Part shown: positions 10,597-25,039 of the stretch, piece after piece | Numbering within the stretch: the stretch's first letter is position 1 | How the letters are laid out: each line of letters starts with the position of its first letter | Assembly: GCA_944324345.1 (NCBI GenBank) | Contig: CALUVT010000002.1 | Span: 186,001 to 250,000 of the forward strand | Reading direction: 5' to 3' | DNA: 64,000 nt | DNA from: Candidatus Gastranaerophilales bacterium | GTDB taxonomy: Bacteria > Cyanobacteriota > Vampirovibrionia > Gastranaerophilales > Gastranaerophilaceae | Made by a program: the position numbers and the translations under genes | Notes under the pieces: model-generated | Told to the model about the DNA's origin: nothing | Databases searched by the model: none | What the model saw: the letters and a program-made list of their open reading frames with translations, nothing else

Positions 10597-11280
10597 ATGA
10601 AAAGAGCTTTTACCTTGGCAGAGGTTTTAATTACTTTAGGAATAATAGGGGTTGTTGCAGCTATTATAATGCCCTCATTAATTACTGATTATCAGAAGAA
10701 AGTCACTGCAAAAAAGCTAAATCAAGCATATAATTATCTTCAACAAACAGTCCAAATGGCTCAAGTTGATTATGGAGATATAACCACTTGGGATTGCTTT
10801 GTTCCTAATACTTGTACTCCGGAGGTTTTTGCCAACAAGTATATCATTCCGTATCTGAAAAACGTAAAATTGTCGACAAGACAATCTTTGGTTTCGTTTG
10901 GTTATAAGGACTATCCAAAATATTTGAATGGAGAAACGACTTTTACAAGCTGGGTTTATATAATTCAAACGACCCAAGAATACACATATATGATTAATTC
11001 TTACACTTTAGGGGATAATTCAAGAACTGTATATTCCGTGAAGATAGATATAAACGGGATTAAAGGGCCTAATATTGTTGGTAAAGACATTTTTTTATCA
11101 ACTTATGGATATAATATTTCTAAAAAAAATCATTATAAGTTACAATTATACAATTATAATAACTACACTAGAGATGAGATTATTGCAAACAGTTGTAATA
11201 AAAATGGAGGCAAGGGAGAATTTTGTGGAGCTTTGATAGAAATGGACGGATGGGAAATCAAGAACGGTTACCCTTGGTAA
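10597..11280 (+). CDS. Type IV prepilin-like protein 1
   Basis: 227 residues. A very short positively charged leader (MKRA) is followed by FTLAEVLITLGIIG, the class III/type IV prepilin cleavage site with Glu5, and a hydrophobic helix to about residue 30. The residue before the cut is Ala rather than Gly. The globular part has one N-terminal Cys pair (CFVPNTC), the segment DINGIKGPN-x3-GKD shared with the other two prepilins here, and a C-terminal Cys pair. Expected to be cut by prepilin peptidase and built into a pilus or type II-like pseudopilus. Unlike the copies at 14984 and 24120 it has no G-tract leader. Confidence 0.88.
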   Translation: MKRAFTLAEVLITLGIIGVVAAIIMPSLITDYQKKVTAKKLNQAYNYLQQTVQMAQVDYGDITTWDCFVPNTCTPEVFANKYIIPYLKNVKLSTRQSLVSFGYKDYPKYLNGETTFTSWVYIIQTTQEYTYMINSYTLGDNSRTVYSVKIDINGIKGPNIVGKDIFLSTYGYNISKKNHYKLQLYNYNNYTRDEIIANSCNKNGGKGEFCGALIEMDGWEIKNGYPW

Positions 11281-13971: not shown

Positions 13972-14925
13972 ATGGATATACCTACTTTAGCAATTATTGT
14001 ACCGTGTTATAATGAAGAACTTTGTCTTGATAAGACCATAAACCGTTTGATTGAAGTTCTAAATGGATTGGCTGCTGAGGGGAAAATTAAATCTGACAGT
14101 TACATTTATTTGGTTGATGACGGTTCACACGATTCAACATGGCAAATAATTGAAAAACACCATGCCCTTGATAATCGAATTAAAGGTACAAAATTTATAA
14201 GAAATTTTGGAAATCAAAAAGCGTTGATTGCAGGTTTGGAAAGCGTAAGAGAAATTGGCTGTGACTGTGCGGTTTCAATTGACGCTGATTTGCAGCAGGA
14301 TGAAAATGCTATTGAAAGATTTATAAACGAATATATGAATGGTGCTGATATTGTTTCGGGGATAAGAAGAAACAGAAAAACGGATACTTTTTTCAAAAAG
14401 TTTACGGCTGTTATGTTCTACAAAACAATGAACATTCTTGGTGCTAAGATTCCGCCAAATCATTCAGATTTTAGATTAGTTAGCAAAAAAGCTTTAAAAA
14501 TTATGGAGTTGTACCCTGAAAAATACCTGTTCTTGAGAGGCTTTTTCAATGAAGTCGGGTTAAATACAGCTTATGTTGATTTTGATGTAAAACCTCGTGA
14601 GGCAGGAGAATCAAAGTATAATTTCTTTAGTTTAATGGCTTTGGCATTAAATGGCATAACTTCTTATAGTGTTGTACCATTGAGATTTGTAGCAGTTTTA
14701 GGCTTCTTCATGGCCTTGTTTGGTTTTTTGGTTGGAGTTGAAACAGTAATTGAAAAAATATTTTGGCATAATTCTCCAAACGGTTGGGCAACAACTATAA
14801 TTTTGTTGTGTGTTTTTGGCGGAATTCAACTCTTTTGCCTCGGATTAATAGGTGAGTATGTCGGACAGGTATACCGCGAAGTAAAGGCAAGACCTCGTTA
14901 TGTAAAAGATATTGAGTTGAAATAA
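13972..14925 (+). CDS. GT2 polyprenyl-phosphate glycosyltransferase (DPM1/GtrB/ArnC type)
   Basis: 317 residues. The GT-A domain shows VPCYNEE, LVDDGSHD and SIDADLQQD (metal-binding DxD context), followed by two C-terminal transmembrane helices (about 230-255 and 270-300), the layout of enzymes that load a sugar onto undecaprenyl phosphate. The ATG at 13972 follows GAGAGGG; the upstream frame start at 13939 is not supported. The divergent ydjC-like deacetylase suggests a shared role in envelope sugar modification. Its last codons overlap the -35 box of the next promoter. Confidence 0.92.
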   Translation: MDIPTLAIIVPCYNEELCLDKTINRLIEVLNGLAAEGKIKSDSYIYLVDDGSHDSTWQIIEKHHALDNRIKGTKFIRNFGNQKALIAGLESVREIGCDCAVSIDADLQQDENAIERFINEYMNGADIVSGIRRNRKTDTFFKKFTAVMFYKTMNILGAKIPPNHSDFRLVSKKALKIMELYPEKYLFLRGFFNEVGLNTAYVDFDVKPREAGESKYNFFSLMALALNGITSYSVVPLRFVAVLGFFMALFGFLVGVETVIEKIFWHNSPNGWATTIILLCVFGGIQLFCLGLIGEYVGQVYREVKARPRYVKDIELK

Positions 14926-14945
14926 TTATTCAAATTTGTTAAAAT
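14917..14945 (+). promoter_or_regulatory. Promoter of the G-tract prepilin 2 locus
   Basis: TTGAAA (14917-14922), 17-base spacer, TAAAAT (14940-14945), a near-consensus sigma70 promoter. The predicted start is near 14952, about 30 bases before the leader ATG at 14984, with GAGGAG as ribosome site. Confidence 0.65.
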
Positions 14946-14983
14946 AGTCATGTTGTATTAAAAATAGTTGAGGAGCAGAAAGT

Positions 14984-15037
14984 ATGAAAACAATAATTAA
15001 CAGTGATATCTTCGGGGGGGGGGCACTCAAAGCTTAA
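14984..15037 (+). CDS. Leader mini-ORF ending just after a G10 tract (prepilin 2, current frame)
   Basis: With GAGGAG eight bases upstream, the ATG opens a 17-codon frame (MKTIINSDIFGGGALKA). It reads through ten consecutive G (15014-15023) and stops at TAA 15035. A nearly identical leader is at 24120-24173. With 11 or 8 G the same start would instead continue into the prepilin body. The peptide itself may have no function; it is the out-of-frame form of the prepilin leader. Confidence 0.7.
   Translation: MKTIINSDIFGGGALKA
15014..15023 (+). repeat. Homopolymer tract of ten G (prepilin 2)
   Basis: Ten consecutive G within the leader coding sequence, preceded by ATCTTC and followed by CACTCA. 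Runs of this length are exceptional in such an AT-rich genome. The tract sits exactly where its length decides whether the leader joins the prepilin frame. Confidence 0.95.
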
Positions 15038-15820
15038 CCAACCAATTTAAGGCTTGTAGAAAAAGAGGCTTTACTTTATCTGAGGTGTTAATAACACTAG
15101 CAATAATAGGGATTGTTGCAGCACTAACTTTAACGACAGTTGTTCCGGAAATACAACTCAGGCAGAATATCGCAAAGTGGAAAGAATGTTATTCAATTTT
15201 GAATAACGCATTTAACATGGTTTTAGCGGAAAACCCTAATTTAAAAGTTTCACAAGCTGGATATAACGCAATGACTCGTGAATTTATAAATCTTCTGCTC
15301 GAAAAATTAAATGTTGTAGAAACTTGTGGTGGTCTACCTGTGTATGATAGTGAACCTTATGATAAAAATTCCTGTGATTGTTGGAATCCTCATCCAAAAT
15401 TTAGTTGGGCAGGAATACATTTTGGAGCTTCAGCTAGTGTATATAAAACTCTTGCCGGAGGGAGTATAAATGCCTATGATTATGCAAACCGTGCTGCTTT
15501 GTTAAACAATGGTGCTGCTATATATTTTGGAAGTGCAGGTAGTGGTTTGATGATTCTTGTTGATGTAAATAATTTTAACGGTGGTCCAAATGTTTTGGGG
15601 AAAGATGTTTTTGCTATTACATTTATGAAAGTCTCAAATCAAAAAAGTGTTTATATAGAAGATTTAAAATTTGCACCATTTGGAGCTGCAGGGACGTATG
15701 GAGCATCTGACCCTCAATATGGCAGTTCAGGTTGTTCTCCAAGTGTTGGTGAAAAAGATGCACTATATGTATTCAAAGCCTCAGGTGCGGGGTGCAGTTA
15801 TAAATATTTAATGAAATAAG

Positions 15821-24086: not shown

Positions 24087-24119
24087 TTAAATGTATAGTT
24101 AAGTTGAGGAGCAGAAAGT

Positions 24120-24173
24120 ATGAAAACGCTAATGAACAGTGACATCTTCGGGGGGGGGGCACTCAGAGCTTAA
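24120..24173 (+). CDS. Leader mini-ORF ending just after a G10 tract (prepilin 3, current frame)
   Basis: A 17-codon frame (MKTLMNSDIFGGGALRA) with GAGGAG ahead. It matches the mini-ORF at 14984-15037 in 13 of 17 residues and in its ten-G tract. If the tract had 11 or 8 G, translation would read on without a stop through 24224 into prepilin 3, giving a 306-residue product with 11 G. Confidence 0.7.
   Translation: MKTLMNSDIFGGGALRA
24150..24159 (+). repeat. Homopolymer tract of ten G (prepilin 3)
   Basis: Ten consecutive G in the context ATCTTC-G10-CACTCA, identical in length and flanks to 15014-15023. Confidence 0.95.
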
Positions 24174-24189: not shown

Positions 24190-24217
24190 TTGTAGAAAAG
24201 AGAACAAATGTTATAAT
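24190..24217 (+). promoter_or_regulatory. Internal promoter for a leaderless, short form of prepilin 3
   Basis: TTGTAG (24190-24195), 16-base spacer, TATAAT (24212-24217); the ATG 24224 is at the expected start site. It lies within the extended leader frame, downstream of the G-tract, so the short form could be expressed whatever the tract length. Confidence 0.55.
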
Positions 24218-24223
24218 AGTGAT

Positions 24224-25039
24224 ATGAAACATCACTATTATAAAAAACAAGGATTTACCTTAGCAGAAGTATTAATAACTTTAGGAATAATTGGAATTGT
24301 AGCAGCTTTAGCACTAACAACAGTAATTCCTGAAATACAAAACAAACAAAATATTGCCAAATTAAAAAAGACTTACGCTGTTGTAAGTTCTGCTTTGAGC
24401 GAAGTTATAGCAGACGATGTATTAATTTGTGAGGCATATAACAGAAATGGAGCCTGTGTAAGTAACGATAACGCATATATAGGTTCATTTTCGGAGGAAT
24501 TTCTTCCGGCAATTAAAAAGAAATTGAATGTTGCGGATTACTGTGAAGGTAGTGCTGAACATCGTTGTGACAACGATGGTACAGCTAATAGGAAGAAGAA
24601 ATGGGTTGGAACTCATAATGCATATTCTTTATATAGAGCTCTTGGTGTAAAATCAAAATCAAACCCAACGGGAGGCTCTCCTTATGGTGTATATTCATAT
24701 AATTTCAACAAACTTGCTTTATTATTGCAAGATGGTTCTGTTGTGTATTTTGGTGAATTATGGGATGGACCTTGGGTTGTTGTAGATGTTAATAATTTTC
24801 AAAAAGGTCCGAATGAGTTTGGTCGGGATGTATTCGTTTTCAATATAATTTCTAATACAAAGAAAAATAATCACTACATGGCTCCTGCAGGTTCAGATAG
24901 TATATATGTAGAACATCCATCGTTGAACAATCCATCAAATGGAATAACAGGTTGCTCAAAAGATATAGGCCAGCAGACAGGTACAACTGTTTCGTCTATT
25001 GCAGGGGTAGGTTGTACCGCTAAGTATCTGTTAGAATAA
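24224..25039 (+). CDS. Type IV prepilin-like protein 3 (short form; long form needs G-tract shift)
   Basis: 271 residues. Leader MKHHYYKKQG then FTLAEVLITLGIIG with Glu5 and a hydrophobic helix: a canonical type IV prepilin start. The body has several Cys (CEAYNRNGAC, CEG...RC), the shared VDVNNFQKGPNEFGRD segment and a C-terminal Cys pair like prepilin 2. The frame is open upstream to the G10 tract at 24150, so a long form with 35 more residues is possible. It is followed closely by CpaE- and CpaF-like genes, which suggests a joint pilus or secretion role. Confidence 0.88.
   Translation: MKHHYYKKQGFTLAEVLITLGIIGIVAALALTTVIPEIQNKQNIAKLKKTYAVVSSALSEVIADDVLICEAYNRNGACVSNDNAYIGSFSEEFLPAIKKKLNVADYCEGSAEHRCDNDGTANRKKKWVGTHNAYSLYRALGVKSKSNPTGGSPYGVYSYNFNKLALLLQDGSVVYFGELWDGPWVVVDVNNFQKGPNEFGRDVFVFNIISNTKKNNHYMAPAGSDSIYVEHPSLNNPSNGITGCSKDIGQQTGTTVSSIAGVGCTAKYLLE

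Follow-up and report, generated by a model that had tools for sequence, protein, structure and literature searches.

A ten-G tract ahead of prepilin genes in Candidatus Gastranaerophilales as a probable phase-variation switch

A run of ten G separates a ribosome-site start codon from the body of a prepilin gene in a 64,000-nucleotide stretch of the genome of a Candidatus Gastranaerophilales bacterium (hereafter the window; GCA_944324345.1, contig CALUVT010000002.1, positions 186,001 to 250,000). We consider it probable that this run acts as the mutable switch for a phase-variable prepilin belonging to a set of about 45 in the genome, that its length changes by slipped-strand mispairing, and that most members of the set are OFF by a single slip. 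This reading was reached without sequencing reads, and switching itself was not observed.

A prepilin body out of frame with its leader

The locus had been proposed, from the DNA letters alone, as a candidate phase-variable pilin with its only ribosome-site start out of frame at a ten-G tract. Direct reading of the region bore out every sequence detail and coordinate of that proposal. The features are as follows.

14917-14945, + strand: sigma70-like leader promoter, TTGAAA (14917-14922)-N17-TAAAAT (14940-14945), by direct reading
14970-14975, + strand: Shine-Dalgarno sequence GAGGAG, by direct reading
14984-15037, + strand: leader open reading frame from ATG 14984 in the present (OFF) frame, MKTIINSDIFGGGALKA-stop
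15014-15023, + strand: G10 tract, the presumed site of slippage, inside a TC-G10-CA..AGCTT element
15070-15819, + strand: prepilin body, FTLSEVLITLAIIGIVAALT..., 249 aa, without an in-frame start in the G10 state

The tract sets ATG 14984 one base off the frame of the prepilin body, and the present-frame leader ends after 17 codons at TAA 15035-15037. Adding one G, or removing two, lets the leader MKTIINSDIFGGGGTQSLTNQFKACRKRG run into FTLSEVLITL, giving the predicted open reading frame of 278 residues (29 + 249). The claim that the prepilin has no start codon in the present frame also holds, back to the nearest upstream stop: no ATG, GTG or TTG lies in the pilin frame between TGA 15004-15006 and F15070. 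An Rfam search of the region found no known RNA element.

The body at 15070 matches TIGR02532 with 19.4 bits (cut-off 16.3). Against PF07963 the body alone reaches 17.3 bits, the cut-off being 21.2, and a genome scan of the same site gives 36.1 bits; beyond prepilin N-terminal families, the body matched no family. An AF2 model built from 13 paralogs (pLDDT 84) has an N-terminal helix at residues 3-54 and a beta-rich remainder. The criterion for the prepilin class, a G/A-F-T-L-x-E motif with a hydrophobic N-terminal helix, is met. That of a globular domain like a solved pilin is not, PDB searches of the pilin by sequence and by fold having returned no significant match. That the protein is cut by prepilin peptidase and built into filaments is inferred from the motif only; it could form a major pilus, a minor tip protein or a secretion pseudopilus.

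Other prepilins in the window and an internal motif

A second identical case in the window, like the genome-wide family described below, had not been covered by the original prediction. Its leader and arrangement are the same as at the 15014 locus. One ordinary prepilin serves as control.

24106-24173, + strand: Shine-Dalgarno sequence and leader of the second copy, ATG 24120, MKTLMNSDIFGGGALRA-stop
24150-24159, + strand: second G10 tract, likewise one base short of joining its own pilin
24190-24236, + strand: internal motif TTGTAG-N16-TATAAT-AGTGAT-N7-ATCACT between tract and pilin, possibly a promoter plus dyad, conserved at the DNA level in 46 linkers
24224-25039, + strand: prepilin body belonging to the second tract, which may start leaderless at ATG 24224
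10597-11280, + strand: control, an ordinary prepilin without a tract, short leader MKRA-FTLAEV

The motif, in the form TTGtaA-N16-TATAAT-AGTGAT-N7-ATCAC, lies between tract and pilin at many loci (e.g., L014, L016, and L057), and near-matches in the window's genome (G000) occur only at tract-pilin loci. It is conserved as DNA: across the 46 linkers TAT, AAT and AGT are nearly invariant, and the final His is encoded by CAC in nearly all, against a background use of 26%. The motif may be a promoter with an operator, plus a possible leaderless start. Because an ATG directly follows it at 19 of 38 own-genome OFF loci, those pilins might be made independently of the tract. An internal start is absent from six own loci and from 70 of 124 relatives' loci, and one with a ribosome site is present at only 14 of 162. 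The 15070 pilin has neither the TTGtaA-N16-TATAAT motif nor an internal start.

The tract family in the genome and genus

The genome G000 (1,764,697 bases, five contigs) contains 51 G-runs of at least seven, none of them seven or eight long. Forty-eight have a length of ten or eleven and follow a C; at this base composition chance would give about 0.04 runs of at least ten G in 1.76 Mb, so the contingency-locus criterion of a homopolymer beyond chance is met. About 45 of the 48 sit in the leaders of prepilin genes. There are 70 prepilin-motif matches in the genome, approximately 46 adjoining a tract and 24 without one; at L003, a long prepilin-motif gene with a tract is in frame. The remaining three runs, two of which lie near contig ends, are G9 and do not belong to the family. 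An identical T-run/G9 sequence is present at the end of L034 and the start of L047 (the end of contig C1 and the start of C3), probably a repeat at an assembly break.

Across 33 genomes of the genus we counted 1311 TC-Gn-C tracts (G9, 53; G10, 1162; G11, 79; G12, 17), 89% of which are G10. Copies of G10 occur in 29 of the 33 genomes, and no TC-G10-C tract was found in G013, G039, G040, or G045, which therefore offer a point of comparison for how the system was lost or gained. The relatives with the pattern are mostly Candidatus Gastranaerophilales MAGs; other families of the order have almost no such tracts. One genome was sampled per species, and the length differences are those between paralogs and between species. 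Since most relatives were retrieved by a pattern that demanded G10, their tract lengths, not their frames, are biased.

A fixed frame relation between leader and pilin

For each tract we located the upstream start with a ribosome site and the downstream pilin motif, and counted the bases needed to join them. At 162 of 173 unambiguous G10 loci one added base (or two fewer) joins leader and pilin, the rest being split between 0 and -1, and all 162 leaders are free of stops once joined. Within G000, 38 of 41 G10 loci obey this +1 rule (P ~2e-15 against 1/3, ignoring kinship between paralogs). Where longer leaders were missed by the start filter, the longest open reading frame likewise lies at +1 base. 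Copies with G11 are mostly in frame (L039, L043, L046, and L078), and the majority of G9 copies are consistent with the same rule. Whether the frame is open or truncated thus depends on tract length, as is required of a contingency locus.

The further requirement, that length vary between copies or genomes and that ON as well as OFF lengths occur, is met by the L078 pair (one G10, one G11), by the genus counts, and by the congener G002. Tracts in G002 are 10-16 long; of 21 classified pilins, five are in frame, the tract exceeds the in-frame length by one base at 15, and it falls one base short at one. There, G12 at L255 is ON and G13 at L245 and L262 is OFF, with near-identical tract flanks. 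The proposal of a phase-variable pilin is supported by the family of about 45 loci, the frame rule with its stop-free joins, the in-frame G11 paralogs, and the mixed ON and OFF states in G002. Neither outcome that would have refuted it is true, since lengths other than 11 G occur in relatives and the tract is retained there.

The idea that the locus makes a conserved short peptide was rejected, as the OFF-frame peptide varies across loci and codon phases. From L234 to L263 of G002 the flank differs from that of other tracts (ATC-Gn-ATTTTGCTCCTAGC), and in several G002 copies a longer tract is offset by a shorter A/T run behind it, the total staying at 18.

Codon phase and strand polarity

At direct loci the tract starts in codon phase 0, 2, and 1 at 68, 38, and 22 loci, respectively; inverted loci are divided 25/5/4 among the phases. 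The coding strand carries C at about 40 loci, and the frame rule is unchanged there. Its independence of codon phase and of coding-strand G or C indicates an indel at the DNA level rather than a ribosomal slippery codon.

The inverted copies in G000 are six prepilin loci and an acyltransferase gene; their coding strand carries C10, and G is still on the leading strand. Along the contigs of G000 the G strand of the family switches only twice (C1:35084-C1:211896 and C2:210159-C2:305311). The sign of the residual GC skew, corrected for gene strand, matches the G strand in 17/17 sampled regions (coefficient 0.052 ± 0.006), with the side assigned from tract orientation. The flanks, TC before and CA..T..AGCTT after, are common to direct and inverted copies; in relatives the AGCT flank was partly pre-selected by the search pattern, and the G000 set is free of that selection. 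From the constant placement of G on the strand serving as lagging-strand template, we infer that the replication fork may matter.

Uniformity of length ten

Slippage rates for Campylobacter jejuni are tabulated in PMC8224891 (Table 2), and from them we calculated that the commonest length would hold a stationary share of 43% at most. To reach the 89% found here would take a restoring bias of greater strength, or else selection that favors the OFF state. The acyltransferase gene is in frame at ten, a hint that the attractor is length ten as such, with frames tuned around it. Loss of mismatch repair as the cause of the tracts was rejected, as MutS1 and MutL are present. Tentatively, and as no more than one possibility, tract and flanks (TC-G10-CA..T..AGCTT) could form a dedicated polar switch module whose length is held at ten by a replication-strand-dependent process; it would keep a large pilin repertoire OFF by default with few members ON at once, and would accept G or C on the coding strand as long as G stays on the leading strand.

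Proposed mechanism and alternatives

In the proposed switch, translation would begin at the ribosome-site ATG and pass through 9-17 leader codons into the tract. At length 10 the ribosome would be out of the pilin frame and stop early (OFF). A one-base gain to length 11 by slipped-strand mispairing at replication would make leader and prepilin one open reading frame (ON), and the long leader would be cut off before Phe by prepilin peptidase. As most loci are one slip from ON, few pilins would be ON in any cell and the set would differ between cells. Slippage at replication and its reversibility are inferred, and so are the assembly of pili and any part played in adhesion or in evasion of phage or host. 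Speaking against a switch are the tract uniformity, far above the prediction from C. jejuni rates, the presence of MutS1 and MutL, and the possible bypass of the tract at half of the own OFF loci, where an ATG lies behind TATAAT.

The DNA could instead be constant, with RNA polymerase slippage or ribosomal frameshifting producing a small, fixed joined fraction from every G10 gene. Such programmed recoding would suit an offset and a length of ten that are nearly invariant over about 30 genomes, and ten bases would fill the RNA-DNA hybrid. However, tracts begin in different codon phases, runs of C follow the rule as runs of G do, a copy with G11 requires no shift, and the strand polarity tracks replication, not transcription. 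Most G002 loci need -1; with lengths of 10-16, mixed frames, and a reversed shift direction, they argue against a fixed recoding signal. Drifting tract lengths would give this reversal, and a conserved signal would not. The criterion of a programmed frameshift, a fixed shift direction at a conserved slippery context, is not met. Ribosomal slippery-site recoding was rejected on the grounds that neither codon phase nor strand is constant and that the shift required in G002 is in the opposite direction; slippage in transcription, though less likely, is not excluded. Overall we regard recoding as improbable.

Still less probable, in our judgment, is that the tract hardly matters to expression and that pilins are made from the internal promoter and start, the leader being a by-product. 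The conservation of the internal motif as DNA, often with an ATG right behind it, speaks for this; the many loci without an internal start, the rarity of internal ribosome sites, and the lack of the motif at the 15070 pilin speak against it, and it does not account for the absence of stops from the joined frames or for the fixed frame relation. We give very little weight to a polar DNA site (for recombination, chromosome orientation, or a G-structure) as the primary function, with an incidental effect on frame. Orientation does always follow the leading strand, inverted genes included, and direct and inverted copies share their flanks, yet the element occurs almost only in prepilin leaders, obeys a reading-frame rule, and is missing from about 24 of the 70 prepilins. 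As for a true length of 11 everywhere, hidden by assembly or base-calling error, G homopolymers are error-prone in sequencing (PMC9187656). We nevertheless find this next to impossible, with G10 called in many independent assemblies, lengths of 9, 11, and 12 and longer called as well, and 10-16 in G002. A slipped-strand switch is our preferred reading.

Relation to known systems

Phase variation is best known from pathogens. In Neisseria, we know of few pilin-type targets and of no genus-wide leader cassette ahead of dozens of prepilins. The likeness there is that intragenic homopolymer tracts turn surface filaments and modifications ON and OFF (PMC5953494). Sortase-dependent pili of the gut commensal Bifidobacterium breve are switched by G-tract slippage: near the start of the pilus gene lies a G10-G12 tract whose length as annotated breaks the frame, and an indel joins two open reading frames (PMC9187656). 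That species has one or two tracts per genome and no paralog family, whereas the Gastranaerophilales genes encode prepilin-class proteins, number about 45 per genome, share a flanking element, and carry the tract on either coding strand. C. jejuni NCTC11168, with 29 poly-G/poly-C loci of 7 or more (PMC4965091), is likewise AT-rich, with many G8-G12 tracts in surface genes whose frames are switched by one-base slips. Its tracts serve mixed functions and are broad in length, in contrast to a set that is mainly one gene family, exactly ten long in 89% of cases, almost all OFF by one base, and of fixed replication polarity. A search of the available papers for phase variation in Gastranaerophilales found no report. 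The class of mechanism is known; what appears to be new is the lineage, the scale within a single family, the tuning to OFF by default, and the strand rule.

If the switch is real, a little-studied gut lineage beside the cyanobacteria holds about 45 independently switchable, default-OFF pilins, possibly among the largest single-family phase-variable sets. It would offer a natural test of how tract length is held tight and of whether fork strand polarity governs homopolymer slippage. Annotation would be at risk as well, since dozens of these pilins would be called broken or start-truncated.

Tracts outside prepilin genes

The acyltransferase gene lies at about 1598 of L050 on the minus strand (G000:C3:52088), where an in-frame C10 is found inside an acyltransferase-like membrane protein, as judged by eye. 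With its identity resting on that judgment, it is likely a phase-variable surface-modification gene. A non-pilin gene that is 94% identical between L083 (1158) and L205 (6446) is out of frame with C11 in one genome; the other genome has C10, and the gene is in frame there. At L151 (6445) and L163 (3881), members of another non-pilin family (leader MLEAI..., with a later hydrophobic segment) carry the same G10 leader, and their +1 join is long and open.
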